This document shows positions 3,394 to 11,231 of a DNA stretch of 37,787 nt, piece after piece. This DNA comes from an uncultured bacterium (GTDB lineage: Bacteria; Pseudomonadota; Gammaproteobacteria; Burkholderiales; Burkholderiaceae_E). The notes under the pieces were generated by a model. That model did no database searches. It was given only the letters and a program-made list of their open reading frames with translations, and had not been told where the DNA came from. The DNA is taken from positions 1-37,787 of the forward strand of contig CAIPNM010000457.1 of NCBI GenBank assembly GCA_903866395.1, in the 5' to 3' direction. The position numbers and the translations under genes are program-made. The number at the start of each line of letters is the position of its first letter. The stretch's first letter is position 1.

Positions 3394-3894
3394 CTAGAGA
3401 AAGCGGTCGAGCAGCCGCCGGCTGTTGCGGTCGAGCGCCGCGGTATCACGCACCAGATAGTGAATGCCGTCGCTGTCGGTAATGAGGAGCGCACCGTTTC
3501 CGATCCGGCGAATGTCTTCTTCGCCCTTCAGAACGAAGCGGGCGGGTCCGCGGTCGGTGTCCACCCGCCACGTGCAGGGTGTGACGAACCCCGATACCTC
3601 CAGAAGCTGCGCGATCACCGGCATAAATTCGCGCTCATCGAGCGCCTCCTGCACCAGCGACCGGACAGCGGGCTCGAGCGCTGAAATCTGCTCGATCCAG
3701 AACAGCTCATGGCCCTCTGCACTCATCAAGGACAGCCCACGCTCGGGCGCCGAGATGGGAAAGGCGCGCACCGCCAGGACCGGCTCATGCACCACCCCTT
3801 CGGGCGTGGTGAGCCGCAGCCGGCCGGCAGGCGTGCGCTCTAGCGTGGCGCCGGAGAGGAGCCGCGCAAGGACAGGAGCGGGCGTGACGGACAT
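3394..3894 (-). CDS. DUF1854 protein associated with cyanophycin metabolism
   Basis: This 166-residue soluble protein belongs to the DUF1854 family. Recognisable features are a middle FWIEQISAL segment and a conserved C-terminal part, WRVDTDRGPARFVLKGEEDI then LITDSDGIHYLVRDTAALD. It has no signal peptide or membrane segment. The ATG lies 3 nt after the TGA of the upstream ABC transporter gene, with GAGG 8 nt before it, so the two are translationally coupled. In cyanophycin-making betaproteobacteria this family is regularly found with that transporter and with cphA/cphA'. Its biochemical role is not known. A cytosolic partner or regulator of the transporter is my inference from coupling and conservation of the pair. 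Confidence 0.88.
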   Translation of the reverse strand: MSVTPAPVLARLLSGATLERTPAGRLRLTTPEGVVHEPVLAVRAFPISAPERGLSLMSAEGHELFWIEQISALEPAVRSLVQEALDEREFMPVIAQLLEVSGFVTPCTWRVDTDRGPARFVLKGEEDIRRIGNGALLITDSDGIHYLVRDTAALDRNSRRLLDRFL

Positions 3895-3897
3895 CGA

Positions 3898-6300
3898 TCA
3901 GACCTCGGCCGCCACCCGCACCGGATGCGGCGTCTCCGCGCGCCAGTCGGGCAGCGCGTCCTCCGTGTCCACATTGCGGGCTTGGGCCTGATAGAGCCGG
4001 AAATAGGCACCTTCACGCGCCATCAGTTCCTCGTGCGCACCCACCTCGACCACCTGGCCGCGATCGAGCACCACCAGCCGGTTGGCGCGACGCAGCGTGC
4101 TCAACCGGTGCGCGATCGCAATGGTGGTACGGCCCGCCACCAGGTTGTCGAGCGCGCGCTGGATTTCCTTTTCGGTCTGCGTATCAACCGACGAGGTGGC
4201 CTCGTCAAGAATGAGGATGCGCGGGTCGATGAGCAGCGCGCGCGCGATCGAGATTCGCTGGCGTTCGCCCCCAGACAGAGCCTGACCACGCTCTCCCACC
4301 AGCGAGTCGTAGCCGTGCGGCAGCCGCAGGATGAAATCATGGGCATGCGCGGCGCGCGCCGCAGCGATGATTTCCTCGCGCGTCGCCTCGGGCTTGCCGT
4401 AGGCAATGTTGTCCGCAATGGTGCCAAAGAACAGGAAGGGCTCCTGCAGCACCAGACCGATGCTGCGCCGATAGTCAGCCACCGGGAGTGACCGCACATC
4501 CACGCCATCGACCAGCACCGCGCCCTCGGTGACATCGTAGAAGCGACAGATCAGATTCACGAGCGTGCTTTTCCCCGAACCGCTGTGGCCGACCAGGCCA
4601 ATCATCTCGCCCGGCTCGATGGTGAGCGAGATGCCGCGCGTGACGGAGCGGCTGCCATAACGAAAGCCGACGTTCCGCAACTCGATCCGTCCGCTCACGT
4701 GGGTGAGCGCCACCGGCCGAGTGGCCTCTGGAACACTCGACACGTGGTCCAGGATGTCGAAGATCCGTTTGGCCCCGGCGGCCGCTTTCTGCATGAACGA
4801 TACAAACCGGCTCATTGAGTCGAGTCGGGTGTAGAAGCGGCCGATGTAGGCAAGAAATGCCGTGAGTACCCCGACGGTGACCTGATCACGCGTAACCAGC
4901 CAGATTCCGAAGCCCCAGACGATCAGAAGCCCAATTTCAGTGAGCAGCGTGACGGTGGGCGAAAACAGCGACCAGACGCGGTTCACCCGATCGTTTACCG
5001 CACGATTGAGCCGGTTGGCTTCCCGGAACCGATTGGACTCACGCTTTTCCTGAGCGAAGGCCTTGACCACGCGGATGCCGGGAATGGTGTCGGCCAGCAC
5101 GTTGGTGACCTCTCCCCAGATCCGGTCGACTTTCTCGAAGCCGTGCTTCAGGCGATCACGGACCAGGTGGATCATCCAGACGATGAGGGGTAGCGGCAGG
5201 AGCGTCACCATCGCAAGCCAGGGGTCGATCGACACGAGCACCGCGGTGGTCATCACAATCACCAGCACGTCGGTGGCGAAGTCAAGCAGATGAAGCGACA
5301 GGAACAGATTGATGCGATCGGTTTCCGCGCCGATGCGGGCAATCAGGTCGCCGGTCCGCTTGCCGCCGAAATACTGCAGCGACAGGTGCATCAGATGGTC
5401 GTAGGTGGCGGTTCGCAGATCGGCGCCGATTCGCTCGGACACCAGCGCGAGAATGTAAGTGCGCGCCCATCCAAGCGCCCAGGCAACCAGTGCCGACGCG
5501 AGCAGGCCGGTGAGCAGCCAGCCCACCAGCGTGGTGTCGAGCGGCGTGCCGTTCTGATAGGGGATCAGCACCCGATCCATGAGCGGCATGGTGAGGTAGG
5601 GCGGCACCAGCGTGGCCGCCGTGGCAGCCAGCGTGAGGAGAAAGCCGATCAGGAGTTGCGACCGATAAGGGCGGGCAAATCGCCAAAGCCTGAACAGGGT
5701 TCGGGACGAGGGCGCAACAGCAAGCTCTGCCTCGCACTGTGGGCATTCTTCTACGTCAGCCGGCAGGTCGGCACCGCAGCGCTCGCAGTGGGTGGTGGTG
5801 TCGGCACTCGGCTGCTGCACCTCAGGCGACTGTCCGCGCAGCTCGTCAAATCGGCGAACCAGCCGCAGCGCTGCCGGGTTACTGCCCAGCGTAAAGCGCC
5901 AGACATCGAGCCGACAGTCGGCTTCAAACAGCTCGAGCGCGCCCGCTCCCGCGTGATCATGCAGTTCGAGCCGGGTATCCGCTCCCAGCGAATGGCGGTG
6001 CCAATCGGCATCACCAGCGGCCTTCGCCACCAGCGCGCGGTCGGTGAGCACCACCAGCCCCGCGCCATAGCGCAACCGCCGGTCAAGGTCGAGTTCGAGG
6101 GCAACCAGCACCCGCTCGCCCGCCTGCAGGCAGGCGGCGACGACATCGCGCCAAGACTCGGCGATCGACGCATGCGCCGGATCAGCGGCCGGCACGGGCG
6201 GCAGGGACACACTCACGGGAGAAGGCGATTTTCGTTGTTCGGTCGACAAGCGTACAGTATCTAACTGTTCCGGCCCGACCCCGTGCCCACGCACCGACAT
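3898..6300 (-). CDS. Cyanophycin metabolism-associated ABC transporter (fused TMD-NBD with N-terminal accessory domain)
   Basis: Taking the ATG at 6300 gives 800 residues. Residues about 40-155 form an unusual soluble domain with the pattern of a bacterial PH-like fold (GAGLVVLTDRALV, then WHRHSL, then a final helix ALRLVRRFDEL). A zinc ribbon follows (C172-x2-C175 and C186-x2-C189). Residues about 210-500 are an exporter-type six-helix domain. The nucleotide-binding domain has Walker A GHSGSGKST (571-579), the Q-loop, LSGGE (675-679), Walker B ILILDE (695-700) and an H-loop His731, so it should be an active ATPase working as a homodimer. The open frame continues to 6417 inside cphA', but that start is unlikely. 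ATG 6300 has GGAGG 14 nt upstream; GTG near 6216 is another choice. The substrate is unknown. The divergent cphA'/cphA and the coupled DUF1854 gene tie it to cyanophycin. Confidence 0.88.
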   Translation of the reverse strand: MSVRGHGVGPEQLDTVRLSTEQRKSPSPVSVSLPPVPAADPAHASIAESWRDVVAACLQAGERVLVALELDLDRRLRYGAGLVVLTDRALVAKAAGDADWHRHSLGADTRLELHDHAGAGALELFEADCRLDVWRFTLGSNPAALRLVRRFDELRGQSPEVQQPSADTTTHCERCGADLPADVEECPQCEAELAVAPSSRTLFRLWRFARPYRSQLLIGFLLTLAATAATLVPPYLTMPLMDRVLIPYQNGTPLDTTLVGWLLTGLLASALVAWALGWARTYILALVSERIGADLRTATYDHLMHLSLQYFGGKRTGDLIARIGAETDRINLFLSLHLLDFATDVLVIVMTTAVLVSIDPWLAMVTLLPLPLIVWMIHLVRDRLKHGFEKVDRIWGEVTNVLADTIPGIRVVKAFAQEKRESNRFREANRLNRAVNDRVNRVWSLFSPTVTLLTEIGLLIVWGFGIWLVTRDQVTVGVLTAFLAYIGRFYTRLDSMSRFVSFMQKAAAGAKRIFDILDHVSSVPEATRPVALTHVSGRIELRNVGFRYGSRSVTRGISLTIEPGEMIGLVGHSGSGKSTLVNLICRFYDVTEGAVLVDGVDVRSLPVADYRRSIGLVLQEPFLFFGTIADNIAYGKPEATREEIIAAARAAHAHDFILRLPHGYDSLVGERGQALSGGERQRISIARALLIDPRILILDEATSSVDTQTEKEIQRALDNLVAGRTTIAIAHRLSTLRRANRLVVLDRGQVVEVGAHEELMAREGAYFRLYQAQARNVDTEDALPDWRAETPHPVRVAAEV
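6235..6268. promoter_or_regulatory. Divergent promoter/operator region of the cyanophycin locus
   Basis: The 85 bp between the chosen transporter start and cphA', plus adjacent bases, contain the only AT-richer patch of this area. It carries the inverted repeat ACAGT-atcta-ACTGT (6254-6268). On the plus strand, TTGTTC (6235-6240) and TATCTA (6258-6263) are 17 bp apart, a weak sigma-70-like pair. On the minus strand GATACT could be a -10, but it would favour a transporter start downstream of 6247. The stretch 6301-6385 is C-rich (46 C, 19 G) and has no ribosome-binding site for cphA'. This is a weak prediction. Confidence 0.25.
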
Positions 6301-6385
6301 CCTTGCCCCAGCCACCTCCGCGAACCGCGTCCGCACTGTCCCGCGCCCAGCGCCTGCGGGCCCAACGCCTGACTCCCCACCCCAG

Positions 6386-8569
6386 ATGAAGCGCGATATC
6401 GAGATTCTCTCGGTCACCTACCTGCGTGGCCCGAACATGTGGTCCTACCTGCCGGCCATGGAGGCGCTGATCGATATCGGCGAGCTCGAGGACTGGCCGT
6501 CAGACAAGGTGCCGGGACTGCCCGAGCGGCTGGAAAGCTGGCTCCCGACGCTGATCGAACACCGTTGCAGCTATGACGAGCGCGGCGGCTTTCTGAAGCG
6601 CCTGCGTGAGGGCACCTGGCCGGGCCACATCATGGAACACGTCACGCTCGAGCTGCAGTCGCTTGCCGGTCTGCCAGGCGGCTTCGGGCGCGCCCGCGGC
6701 GTTGACGTGCGCGGCCGCTACAAGGTGATCGTCACCCTTTGGGAAGACACTGTCACACTGCGCGCCATGCAGCTCGCGCGCGAGATGGTGCTCGCCGCCT
6801 ATGACGATCGCAGCTTCGACCTGCGCGCGGCGGTTGACGAATTGCGCGACATCGCCGACTCCAACTGCCTGGGCCCCAGCACCGCGGGCATCGTGAAAGC
6901 CGCCGAGCTTCGCGGCGTTCCCGCCATCCGCCTGAACGACGGCAACCTCGTGCAGCTGGGCTACGGGCGAAATCAGCGCCGCATCTGGACCGCCGAAACC
7001 GACCGTACCAGTGCCATTGCCGAGGGTATTTCGCGCGATAAGCAGCTCACGAAGACGCTGCTCGAAGCCTGTGGCGTGGCCGTGCCACCGGGCCGCATGG
7101 TGAGCGGGGCCGACGACGCCTGGGCCGCGGCCGAGGACATCGGGGTACCGGTGGTGGTGAAGCCCTACGACGGCAATCATGGCCGGGGGGTCTGCCTCAA
7201 CCTCGGCACGCGCGAGCAGGTGCTCGCCGCCTATCCGGTGGCCGCGGCAGAAGGTAGCGGCGTCATCGTCGAAAAATACATGACCGGAAACGAGCATCGT
7301 CTGCTGGTAGTGGGTGGGCGGCTTGCCGCTGCCGCACGCGGCCTGCCAGCCTGGGTCACGGGCGATGGTCGACAGACCATCCGCGAACTGATCGAGTCGC
7401 AACTGAATTCCGACCCGCTGCGGGGCGGAACTGGCTGGAGCGACGCCCCCCTCAACCGTGTCGGCATCGACTCCGCGACCCGCCTCGACCTCGCCAGCCA
7501 GGGCTTTGAGCCCGACTCGGTTCCCGGCGAAGACGTACGCGTGCTGGTGCAGCGGAACGGCAATGTCTGCTTTGACTGCACCGCGCTCGTTCACCCCGAT
7601 ACCGCCCGACAAGCGGTACTCGCGGCACGCGTGGTGGGTCTCGATATCGCTGGCGTCGATCTGGTGGCCAACGACATCGCGCAGCCGCTTGCTGGGCAGG
7701 GCGGCGCAATCGTTGAAGTCAACGCAGGCCCGGGCCTTTCCACCCATCTGCGCCCGCCCGGCCTGCCACCCAAGCCGGTTCCCGAGATGATCATCGAACA
7801 CCTGTTCGGCGCCACTGATGATGGTCGCATTCCGGTCATCGGCATCGCTGGCACCGGCGGCACGCGGCTGGCTGCGCGAGTCGTCGCCCATCTGCTCCAG
7901 ATGTCCGGGAAAAAGGTGGGGCTCGCCTGCAGGGACGGTCTGTTCCTGGGCTCGCGCTGCATCGATCACCGCGACAGTGCGAATTTCCTGGCTGGCCAGC
8001 GACTGCTCGTGAACCGCGCCATCGAGTCGGCGGTGATCGAAAACGGGCTCGATGTGCTCCTCGATCAGGGGCTTGCTTACGACTGGTGCCAGGTGGGCGT
8101 CATCACACGCATGAATCCCGACCGTCTGGTGCCCGAGCGCTACATCGATTCAGTCGAGCAGCTCTACAAGGTTTTTCGCACCCAGGTCGATATCGTTCTT
8201 GAAAAGCATGGCACTGCAGTGCTCAACGCCGACGACGATCAGCTGGTTGAAATGGCCTCGCTTAGCAAAGGCCATGTGATGTATTTCAGCGCCAACGCTG
8301 CAGCCGCCGTGCTGGCGAGTCATGCCGCAGCGGGGGGGCGCGCGGTGGTCCTCACGGAAGGCCTGATCAGGCTGCTGGAGGGCGAGCGCGAAATCGCCCA
8401 ACTCCGCGCGGGTACGCTCGAACTGCCCATCGAAGGCGACCCCCGCTCTGCCGACGACGGGCTGCTCGCGGCGATCGCGGCTGCATGGGCCATTGGCATC
8501 CCTCCCGAGCGCATCCAGGCGGGCCTGGAAACACTCGAGCCCATGCCCGCGCCACAGGTCGCCGCCTGA
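6386..8569 (+). CDS. cphA': Cyanophycin synthetase-like protein CphA' (Mur-ligase half degenerate)
   Basis: The 727-residue product matches cyanophycin synthetases from the N-terminal domain (EILSVTYLRGPNMW) through the ATP-grasp domain (about 205-475). The ATP-grasp domain keeps its lysine motif VVVKPYDGNHGRGV (257-269) and metal ligands IVEVNAGPGL (442-451). The following Mur-ligase-like domain is broken. Where CphA has GTNGKTTT, this protein has GTGGTRLA (489-496), so the P-loop lysine and following threonine are replaced by Thr493 and Arg494. It also ends at the position equivalent to residue about 710 of CphA and lacks the C-terminal domain with the DYGHNPDA motif. The ATP-grasp half of CphA adds aspartate and the Mur half adds arginine. 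An enzyme with only the first resembles CphA2-type polymerases of beta-Asp-Arg dipeptides. It sits 64 bp upstream of cphA in the same transcription unit. The start is fixed by homology, with no clear ribosome-binding site. Confidence 0.93.
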   Translation: MKRDIEILSVTYLRGPNMWSYLPAMEALIDIGELEDWPSDKVPGLPERLESWLPTLIEHRCSYDERGGFLKRLREGTWPGHIMEHVTLELQSLAGLPGGFGRARGVDVRGRYKVIVTLWEDTVTLRAMQLAREMVLAAYDDRSFDLRAAVDELRDIADSNCLGPSTAGIVKAAELRGVPAIRLNDGNLVQLGYGRNQRRIWTAETDRTSAIAEGISRDKQLTKTLLEACGVAVPPGRMVSGADDAWAAAEDIGVPVVVKPYDGNHGRGVCLNLGTREQVLAAYPVAAAEGSGVIVEKYMTGNEHRLLVVGGRLAAAARGLPAWVTGDGRQTIRELIESQLNSDPLRGGTGWSDAPLNRVGIDSATRLDLASQGFEPDSVPGEDVRVLVQRNGNVCFDCTALVHPDTARQAVLAARVVGLDIAGVDLVANDIAQPLAGQGGAIVEVNAGPGLSTHLRPPGLPPKPVPEMIIEHLFGATDDGRIPVIGIAGTGGTRLAARVVAHLLQMSGKKVGLACRDGLFLGSRCIDHRDSANFLAGQRLLVNRAIESAVIENGLDVLLDQGLAYDWCQVGVITRMNPDRLVPERYIDSVEQLYKVFRTQVDIVLEKHGTAVLNADDDQLVEMASLSKGHVMYFSANAAAAVLASHAAAGGRAVVLTEGLIRLLEGEREIAQLRAGTLELPIEGDPRSADDGLLAAIAAAWAIGIPPERIQAGLETLEPMPAPQVAA

Positions 8570-8633: not shown

Positions 8634-11231
8634 ATGGACGTCACCCGAATCCGCGCGCTTCGCGGTCCGAATCTCTGGAGCCGACACACTTCGATCGAAG
8701 CGATCGTGCGCTGCGCGCCCGACGAACTGTCGATCGACCGGATCCCCCGCTTCGAGGTGCGGCTGCGCGCCCGGTTTCCGCTGATCGGTGCCATCCGCCC
8801 GATCGGATCGCGTGATGACGTACCGATCGCACAGGCGCTGCAATTCGCCGCGCTCCGGCTGCAAGCTCAGGCGGGATGCCCGGTCACCTTCAGTCGCACC
8901 GCGCCCACACGGGAGCCGGGCCTCTTCCAGGTGGTGTTCGAGTACACCGAGGAACCGGTCGGTCGGCTGGCGCTCCAGCTTGCCGAGGCGCTCTGCCTCG
9001 CCGCGCGCGACGACCAGCCCTTTGACCTCGATGCCGCCCTCAACCAGCTGCGTACGCTCGACGAGGATATCCGGATGGGCCCCAGCACCGGGTCGATCGC
9101 CGACGCGGCGCGCGCCCGTGACATCCCCATCCGCCGCCTGACCGAAGGTAGTCTGGTGCAGTTCGGTTGGGGCAGCCGCGCGCGACGCATCCAGGCGGCC
9201 GAGATCGATGCCACGAGCGCTATCGCCGAATCAATCGCGCAGGACAAGGAACTCACCAAGAAACTGCTTGCTGCCGCGGGGGTGCCGGTCCCGGAGGGAC
9301 GGGTCGTCCGCTCCACCGACGAGGCCTGGGCCGCAATGCGTGAGCTCGCCTCACCGGTCGTGGTCAAGCCGCGCGATGGCAACCAGGGTAAGGGCGTCAC
9401 CGTCAACATCGTGAGCCGTGACCATCTCGAAATCGCCTTCAACGCCGCGTCGCAGTTCAGCTCCAACATCATGGTCGAGCGCTTTATTCCCGGGCACGAT
9501 CATCGGCTGCTGGTGGTGGGCGATCGGCTGATCGCGGCCGCGCGACGCGATCCACCGCACGTCATTGGCGACGGCGTACAGACCATCCGTCAGCTGGTCG
9601 AGGAAATCAATCGCGACCCGCGTCGCGGCGAGGGACACGCCACCTCGCTCACCAAAATTCGTCTGGACGAAATCGCTCATGCCCGCATGCGCGTGCAGGG
9701 CTTTGAGGCCGACTCGATACCGCCCAAAGGCGCGCGAGTGGTACTTCGCAACAACGCCAATCTCAGTACCGGCGGCAGTGCCACCGATGTGACCGACGAT
9801 GTTCATCCCGACCTTGCGGCACGCGCGATCGAAGCAGCGCAGATGGTGGGTCTTGAAATTGCCGGAGTCGACGTGGTGTGCCAGACGGTTCAGCAGTCGC
9901 TGGAGGAACAGGGCGGCGCAATCGTCGAGGTCAATGCCGCGCCGGGCCTGCGCATGCACATCAGCCCTTCGTACGGCAAGGGACGCGAGGTGGGCGAAGC
10001 GATCGTGCGCCTCCTCTATGGCGATGCCGACAGCGGACGTATTCCGGTCGTGGCGGTCACCGGCACCAATGGCAAGACCACCACCGTTCGTCTGATTGCC
10101 CATCTGATCGCGCAATCGGGCCTGCGCGTGGGCATGACCAACACCGACGGCGTTTATGTGAACGGCGTTCAGACCGATAGCGGCGACTGCGCGGGCCCTC
10201 GCAGCGCCCGCAACGTGCTGATGCACCCCGAGGTGGACGCCGCAGTGTTCGAAACCGCGCGCGGCGGCATTCTGCGCGAAGGCCTGGGCTTTGACCGCTG
10301 CCAGGTGGCCGTGGTGACCAACCTGGGTAAGGGCGACCACCTGGGCATCAACCATATTGATTCGATCGATGACCTTGCGCTCGTCAAGCGGGTAATTGTT
10401 GCCAACGTTGCACCCAACGGATTTGCCGTCCTGAATGCGGCCGATCCTTTGGTCGCCTCCATGCAGGCGGTCTGCCCTGGAGGCACGATTTTCTTTGCTC
10501 GCGACAGCGCCCTCCCGGCGATGCGGCGCCAGGCCGCCACCGACCAGCGGGCCGTGCGGCTGGACGGCCAGTCAATCGTCGCGTTTCAGGGCACGCGCGT
10601 GGTTCATCGCTTCGACCTCGCACGCATACCGCTCACGGGGGGCGGCACGATTCCGTTTCAGATCGACAACGCAATGGCCGCGGTGGCGGCGGGCTGGGCG
10701 CTGGGGCTCGACTGGGCACTGATCGCAGCCGGCCTCGCGACATTCGACAGCAATCCCGACACCGTTCCGGGCCGCTTCAATCGCTTCAGCTACCGCGGCG
10801 CCACCGTCATCGCCGATTACGGCCACAACCCCGATGCGATTCTCGCGCTCTCTCAGGCAATTGATGCGATGCCGGCCGGGCACCGCTCGATCGTGATCAG
10901 CGCCGCCGGCGACCGCCGCGACCAGGACATCATCGAGCAGGGTGAAATCGTTGGCCGATTCTTCGATCACGTCATCCTGTACCAGGACGCCGCACAGCGC
11001 GGCCGCGCCGATGGCGAGGTCATGGGGCTCCTGCGGCAGGGACTCGCGAATGCTCCGCGCACCACCCGGATTGAGGAAATCCGCGGCGAGTTTCTCGCCA
11101 TTGATACCGCGCTTGGCGAGCTGAAACCCGGTGACGTCTGTCTGGTGCTGATCGATCAGGTGGACGAAGCACTGGCCCATCTCACTGCGCGCGCAGCAAA
11201 CGCCGCAGCCGATCACGCGTCGAAGCCCTGA
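8634..11231 (+). CDS. cphA: Cyanophycin synthetase CphA
   Basis: This 865-residue enzyme polymerises aspartate into a backbone and attaches arginine to each side chain, using two ATP per Asp-Arg unit and forming cytoplasmic nitrogen-storage granules. Domains in order: N-terminal domain (1-160, beginning IRALRGPNLW), ATP-grasp domain (about 195-465, VVVKPRDGNQGKGV at 242-255 and IVEVNAAPGLR at 430-440) and Mur-ligase central domain with an intact P-loop GTNGKTTT (477-484). The C-terminal Mur domain has DYGHNPDA (728-735) and SAAGDRRD (756-763). Length and motifs are those of a full active enzyme. The ATG at 8634 is preceded by AGGA at 8622-8625, and homology to CphA begins there. The frame is open back to 8493 inside cphA', but that extension is not conserved-looking. 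No cyanophycinase gene is in the window. Confidence 0.97.
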   Translation: MDVTRIRALRGPNLWSRHTSIEAIVRCAPDELSIDRIPRFEVRLRARFPLIGAIRPIGSRDDVPIAQALQFAALRLQAQAGCPVTFSRTAPTREPGLFQVVFEYTEEPVGRLALQLAEALCLAARDDQPFDLDAALNQLRTLDEDIRMGPSTGSIADAARARDIPIRRLTEGSLVQFGWGSRARRIQAAEIDATSAIAESIAQDKELTKKLLAAAGVPVPEGRVVRSTDEAWAAMRELASPVVVKPRDGNQGKGVTVNIVSRDHLEIAFNAASQFSSNIMVERFIPGHDHRLLVVGDRLIAAARRDPPHVIGDGVQTIRQLVEEINRDPRRGEGHATSLTKIRLDEIAHARMRVQGFEADSIPPKGARVVLRNNANLSTGGSATDVTDDVHPDLAARAIEAAQMVGLEIAGVDVVCQTVQQSLEEQGGAIVEVNAAPGLRMHISPSYGKGREVGEAIVRLLYGDADSGRIPVVAVTGTNGKTTTVRLIAHLIAQSGLRVGMTNTDGVYVNGVQTDSGDCAGPRSARNVLMHPEVDAAVFETARGGILREGLGFDRCQVAVVTNLGKGDHLGINHIDSIDDLALVKRVIVANVAPNGFAVLNAADPLVASMQAVCPGGTIFFARDSALPAMRRQAATDQRAVRLDGQSIVAFQGTRVVHRFDLARIPLTGGGTIPFQIDNAMAAVAAGWALGLDWALIAAGLATFDSNPDTVPGRFNRFSYRGATVIADYGHNPDAILALSQAIDAMPAGHRSIVISAAGDRRDQDIIEQGEIVGRFFDHVILYQDAAQRGRADGEVMGLLRQGLANAPRTTRIEEIRGEFLAIDTALGELKPGDVCLVLIDQVDEALAHLTARAANAAADHASKP

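Follow-up and report, generated by a model that had tools for sequence, protein, structure and literature searches.

CphA' and CphA, adjacent cyanophycin synthetase paralogues with reciprocally lost sites, as a probable two-gene split enzyme

We propose that CphA' and CphA, encoded by adjacent genes in the 37,787-nucleotide stretch of DNA analysed here (hereafter the window), are probably the two parts of a split cyanophycin synthetase, with CphA' as the chain-cutting, primer-making subunit and CphA as the polymerising subunit. Using a combination of approaches (alignment, tree and gene order), we observed that these adjacent sister paralogues have lost their sites reciprocally. Judging from these sequence comparisons, the ancestor would have been a complete single-gene enzyme, comprising an N domain with an endo-cyanophycinase site, a G (ATP-grasp) domain for aspartate addition and an M (Mur ligase) domain for arginine addition, which was duplicated in tandem. 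CphA would have kept G and M but not N, and would slowly start and extend chains, while CphA' would have kept N, lost the aspartate-binding part of G, and be progressively losing M. Because N was lost from CphA, CphA alone is expected to be primer-dependent. We infer that the N site of CphA' binds zinc and cleaves, that CphA' and CphA interact and that cyanophycin is their product.

It has been shown that TmCphA1, which has no N site, no longer needs a primer once a G-M- SuCphA1 or an isolated N domain is provided in trans, and that N-G+M+/N+G-M- heterodimers are active (PMC9262961). Our proposal that CphA' cuts and CphA polymerises stems from the resemblance of the gene pair to this engineered N / G+M arrangement. 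The cphA/cphA' pair itself is already known from Ralstonia eutropha H16; in the part of the literature that was covered, we found no description of a division of the N site between CphA' and CphA. It is worth noting that the R. eutropha H16 genes gave no cyanophycin in the native host or in E. coli (review PMC8560796, which does not state whether they were co-expressed), which counts against our proposal.

Sites retained and lost in the two proteins

The translated window genes are 38% identical across 731 aligned columns, and both proteins exceed the cut-off (877) of the NCBIfam cyanophycin synthetase family NF010623, with 942 bits for CphA' and 1198 bits for CphA, CphA' being below the cut-off of TIGR02068 (687 against 850). 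The AlphaFold2 model of CphA' (mean pLDDT 90.6; pTM 0.86) is closer to CphA1, its best structural match (TM 0.86), than to CphA2 (TM 0.67). The family survey comprised the best 80 matches to CphA' as named loci, many of them from MAGs, plus further relatives, and its counts ignore kinship except where they are tree-based. The resulting alignment, numbered by SuCphA1, contained 99 CphA' and 94 paired CphA, 92 of which were well aligned.

Coordinates of the genes and sites of the pair and of its divergent neighbours in the window
Feature	Position	Strand	Basis or remark
DUF1854 protein, cyanophycin metabolism-associated (NF052234), divergent from cphA'	3394..3894	-	218 bits, cut-off 150
ABC transporter, MsbA-like, cyanophycin metabolism-associated (NF052233), divergent from cphA'	3898..6417	-	1377 bits, cut-off 880
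CphA' (P0001), 727 aa	6386..8569	+	N domain, ATP-grasp (G) domain and Mur core remnant; lacks the Mur C-terminal lobe
CphA', predicted N-domain zinc endo-cyanophycinase site	6560..6640	+	H59-C61-x19-H81-x2-E84-H85, equivalent to SuCphA1 H57, C59, H79, E82, H83; Cx19HxxEH motif (PMC9262961)
CphA', ATP-grasp loop KPYDGNHGRG (SuCphA1 K261, H267, R269)	7160..7189	+	Conserved in all 99 CphA' of the main set; the f142 lineage has lost it
CphA', R318-G319	7337..7342	+	G at the Asp-binding R323 position; G in 96 and S in 3 of 99
CphA', QRNGNVCFD	7550..7576	+	Aspartate-binding large loop (S396 region) short by five residues; deleted in 99/99
CphA', S452	7739..7741	+	At the Asp-binding R458 position; L in 84, S in 6, never R among 99 CphA'
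CphA', degenerate Mur P-loop GTGGTRLA, residues 489-496	7850..7873	+	Alignment with CphA GTNGKTTT
CphA', RTQVD, residues 598-602	8177..8191	+	SuCphA1 S603/E607 positions; R 99/99, D 99/99
CphA (P0002), 865 aa	8634..11231	+	Putative polymerising subunit; G and M domains, N site lost
CphA, N-domain region at the expected zinc site, GAIRPIGSRDDVPIAQALQF	8787..8846	+	Cys loop deleted, H and E lost; HC..HEH in 0/94 paired CphA
CphA, Q251	9384..9386	+	Occupies the catalytic H267 position; all 92 well-aligned paired CphA in the main set have Q here
CphA, intact Mur P-loop GTNGKTTT, residues 477-484	10062..10085	+	Translation and family alignment
CphA, Mur C-terminal lobe, absent from CphA'	10770..11147	+	Pfam Mur_ligase_C, residues 713-838

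The N domain, which was not covered by the first-pass annotation of this DNA, is the home of the one site that CphA' retains everywhere. In CphA1, the Cx19HxxEH motif of this domain corresponds to a zinc endo-cyanophycinase that makes primers (PMC9262961). Each of the residues H57, C59, F67, R70, H79, E82 and H83 (SuCphA1 numbering) occurred in 99/99 CphA', the window protein included; seven of the eight N-site residues are among the 22 invariant positions of the 159 N columns (p = 2.8e-6), and the site undergoes zero state changes on a CphA' tree built from the N and G columns only. The complete N site was found in all 99 CphA' and in none of the 94 neighbouring CphA. Where the N loop of CphA is deleted, the alignment is approximate, and the missing Cys loop is plain nonetheless. 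The MRHEH of five Polynucleobacter CphA was considered as a surviving N site and ruled out, the Cys loop being deleted there.

The G domain of CphA' had been annotated as an intact ATP-grasp half, a description that stands for the residues handling ATP and metal and fails for those handling aspartate. The lysines and metal ligands K219, K259, E296, E444 and N446, as well as H265 and R305, are all retained in the window protein (they correspond to SuCphA1 K220, K261, E300, E450, N452, H267 and R309, respectively), and K220, K261, H267, R269, E300, R309, E450 and N452 are invariant across the main set of 99 CphA'. By contrast, the aspartate-binding loop, R323 and R458 were lost in 99/99. TeCphA1 holds the incoming aspartate with the N394/S396 loop, R323 and R458 (PMC9427784), and it is the loss of these residues that makes the ATP-grasp half of CphA' not simply intact. 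The NLSTGG loop of the S396 region is retained in 92/92 paired CphA and in 20/20 single CphA. Judging from its residues, the G domain of CphA' has probably retained, in most lineages, the ability to bind ATP and the end of the chain, and it is unlikely to add aspartate. Adames is said to have noted in 2013 that the R. eutropha CphA' lacks much of a 'J-loop', which fits the deletion seen in CphA'.

As for the Mur half, Pfam matched neither Mur_ligase_M nor Mur_ligase_C in CphA', and found both of them in CphA. The previously reported change of GTNGKTTT into GTGGTRLA was borne out by translation and alignment, as was the absence of a C-terminal Mur domain: CphA' ends where the C-terminal lobe of CphA starts, and DYGHNPDA is absent. 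The window protein also lacks D585/H586, in addition to the P-loop lysine and the C-terminal lobe. Though real in the window, the dead P-loop was ruled out as a defining feature of CphA', since the lysine (K499) is retained in 54/99. A full Mur half (lysine, DH motif and C-terminal lobe) persists in only 12/99 CphA' (from Cupriavidus, Ralstonia, Achromobacter, Pandoraea and one MAG), the P-loop lysine alone in 42/99, and none of the Mur features in 45/99, the window included; from this distribution, the dead P-loop appears to be one late stage of a gradual loss. On the above-mentioned CphA' tree, K499 switches state 16 times and the C-terminal lobe twice. The Mur core is also the least conserved part of CphA', with mean pairwise identities of 0.655 (N), 0.689 (G) and 0.482 (Mur core), the values for paired CphA being 0.599, 0.707 and 0.682, respectively.

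The Mur remnant of CphA' is nevertheless predicted by AlphaFold2 to be well folded, with pLDDT mostly above 90. The side chains at the SuCphA1 S603 and E607 positions of the Mur core contact the polymer bound in the N site, and the R and D found there in CphA' are two of only 10 invariant columns in the 234 of its Mur core. From the well-folded prediction and these invariant polymer-touching positions, we suggest that the remnant serves as a wall of the N-site groove and as a scaffold.

In the 92 well-aligned paired CphA, S396, R323, R458, GKTT and D585/H586 are all retained, and only H267 is changed, to Q. As SuCphA1 and TeCphA1 become inactive or less active upon the H267A mutation (PMC9427784), paired CphA may not polymerise normally, which counts against the split-enzyme proposal.

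Origin of the pair and family f142

In 92/92 intact loci, CphA' immediately precedes CphA on the same strand; two matches occur in 132 of the 147 matching genomes, and the pairs are retained across Burkholderiales families. In a 66-row tree made by a quick method, CphA' and paired CphA form sister clades (support 100), and the complete enzymes without a partner branch outside them. The most economical history is that a complete enzyme was duplicated once in tandem, after which the two copies lost their sites reciprocally. The unpaired CphA, sampled from the Burkholderiales families f41 and f22 and from other gamma-proteobacteria, were complete for every N, G and M residue examined (20/20), which indicates that the loss of the N site in CphA goes with the presence of a CphA' neighbour. 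The sole case of a paired-type CphA without CphA' occurs in genome G375 (L174, 3834-8835), with a transposase-like ORF directly upstream; it counts against the split-enzyme proposal. A search of plasmids found neither CphA'/CphA pairs nor CphA2. The first-pass annotation had offered two roles for CphA', an extension of chains from dipeptides as in CphA2 or a partnership with CphA; the adjacency, the sister clades and the reciprocal losses strongly favour the latter, and the former is unsupported.

The sites of CphA' come apart in family f142, which stands outside Burkholderiales. There, the ATP-grasp loop of CphA' was lost through N266S, H267R and R269E (one protein carrying K220R, E450D and N452T in addition), while the N site is intact in 12/12, making it the only part of CphA' that is retained everywhere among the sequences compared. 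Six of the CphA partners in f142 have H267 and six have Q, or seven once the similar pair of genome G162 is added. In paired CphA, H267 thus occurs only beside a decayed CphA' G loop (6/13 versus 0/92; p 1e-6, the lineages being related; L186/L201, L220, L217, L219, L222, L227), a pattern that is a possible sign, or hint, of a mutual dependence of the two G domains. The strict version of this idea, in which CphA' donates the catalytic H267 to CphA, fails, as 7/13 partners of a decayed CphA' (f142 and G162) still have Q. Outside f142, the G-site residues of CphA' are fully conserved; on this evidence from sequence, the G domain must do something beyond the split-enzyme account, and this counts against the account.

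Several other CphA-like proteins were met in the survey. The single-CphA genome G108 encodes, near a cyanophycinase gene, a 985-aa ORF (L176:3172-6126, +) with two tandem CphA-type Mur ligase stretches and no ATP-grasp half. Two loci carry a second protein, of 659-720 aa, that has only the Mur half of CphA (L170:1982-3958, -; L171:1570-3729, -) beside a complete single CphA and a cyanophycinase. Two CphA-like enzymes with K at H267, GSIGKTT or GSVGKTT, NH for DH and no N site (L173:3797-6508, +; L199:1132-3783, +) are possibly ligases for a different polymer. Finally, a 771-aa CphA-like protein from genome G039 (L029:1264-3576, -), with KPLKGKVGGG and no Mur P-loop, fits neither the CphA' nor the CphA2 description.

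Neighbouring genes and alternative readings

The ABC transporter and the DUF1854 protein were both present in 62 of the 66 named pair loci with enough flank, and neither was present in any of the 9 single-CphA loci (p 6e-9). The transporter of the window has a zinc-ribbon-like N-terminal stretch, CERCGADLPADVEECPQCEAEL. Cyanophycinase (TIGR02069) occurs in 19/19 single-CphA genomes versus 3/24 pair genomes (Fisher p 2e-9), in which the gene never adjoins the pair, and the genome of the window (98.4% complete) has no cyanophycinase, Peptidase_S51, IaaA or IadA above cut-off. In one survey, beta-proteobacteria account for 903 of the 1,614 complete genomes with cphA1, i.e. over half, and just 2.8% of these 903 have a recognisable cyanophycinase, which Sharon and Schmeing called 'unanticipated', suggesting unknown isozymes (PMC10206079). 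Nitrifiers and phosphate-accumulating bacteria, in which cyanophycin storage is assumed, commonly carry the pair (loci of Nitrosomonas, Accumulibacter and Polynucleobacter, L117/L138 among them). A doubtful though possible reading is that the pair, the ABC transporter and the DUF1854 protein do not operate in storage, CphA building and CphA' cutting short beta-Asp-linked oligopeptides that the transporter exports; such an export, if true, would explain both why cyanophycinase is absent and why no stored polymer has been found.

The scarcity of cyanophycinase in pair genomes, its absence along with IaaA and IadA from the genome of the window, and the isozymes suggested by Sharon and Schmeing could all be accommodated if the N site of CphA' were mainly the missing depolymerase, degrading the stored polymer rather than priming its synthesis. 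We regard this as unlikely: the characterised N site is slow and its products are oligomers rather than dipeptides (PMC9262961), single-copy CphA carries the N site alongside a cyanophycinase, and the known dipeptidases for the next step are absent from the genome of the window. That CphA' act as a scaffold or regulator of CphA without any catalysis of its own, its Mur remnant being folded and inert, would agree with the good predicted fold of this catalytically decaying remnant and with the strict adjacency of the genes. We consider it quite unlikely, since a scaffold has no need for invariant residues in the zinc site and, in most lineages, in the ATP site.

It is very unlikely that CphA' resembles CphA2 in joining beta-Asp-Arg dipeptides at its ATP-grasp site, in spite of the dead Mur P-loop and missing C-terminal lobe of the window protein, as in CphA2, and of the ATP-grasp catalytic residues being conserved in 99/99 of the main set. 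We rejected the membership of CphA' in CphA2 because CphA' retains the N motif, which CphA2 lacks (PMC9262961). Furthermore, CphA' has lost the aspartate-holding loop, R323 and R458, whereas two CphA2 chains have the same net length as CphA1 over the loop stretch, an indirect indication, from lengths alone, that CphA2 kept it. The fold of CphA' is closer to that of CphA1, the genome of the window has no cyanophycinase as a source of dipeptides, the G domain decays in f142 and a full Mur half persists in 12/99 CphA'. Last, the repeated losses of Mur residues (the 16 changes of K499) could suggest a decaying pseudo-paralogue heading for loss, which is hardly credible in view of the intact ORFs, the retention of the pairs across Burkholderiales families and the invariance of the N site.

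Comparison with known systems and significance

Similarly to CphA1 (SuCphA1, 7lg5/7txv; TeCphA1, 7wac-7waf), the paired proteins have the N-G-M domain order, the ATP-grasp and Mur folds and, in CphA', the Cx19HxxEH site; unlike in CphA1, the three sites are distributed between two proteins, CphA' being N+, devoid of the Asp-binding part of G and M-, and CphA being N-, with Q at H267 in G, and M+. The paired CphA is similar to the primer-dependent TmCphA1 of T. morbirosei (7lgn) in keeping G and M without an N site; TmCphA1 differs in having H267, and no CphA' partner has been described for it. CphA2 (7ta5, 8fxh/8fxi) has in common with the window CphA' the absence of a working Mur half (its Mur site is inactive and its Mur lid missing), which is untrue of the 12 CphA' with a full Mur half; the differences lie in the N motif, in the Asp-binding loop and in the closer relation of CphA' to CphA1 in both sequence and fold. 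The same gene pair occurs in R. eutropha (Cupriavidus necator) H16, the Cupriavidus CphA' (L085) having the full Mur half that the window CphA' lacks. Finally, the Group 1 cphA cluster of activated sludge bacteria resembles the present locus in its two cphA copies, its ABC transporter and its lack of cphB, but was described as a possible composite transposon, its role being left open, with no functional division of the copies (PMC10687191).

The split-enzyme reading could explain both the lack of the usual polymer-degrading enzyme and the earlier failure to make polymer. If CphA' and CphA are split enzymes, the two must always be examined together, as one gene cloned alone could yield nothing, and the experiment that gave no polymer from the Ralstonia eutropha genes would have to be done again. 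In view of the linked transporter, one may ask whether the product is stored at all. The pair would be a natural case of the primer-making site of a polymerase turned into a separate subunit, in which the cut-to-prime model could be tested without mutating an enzyme.
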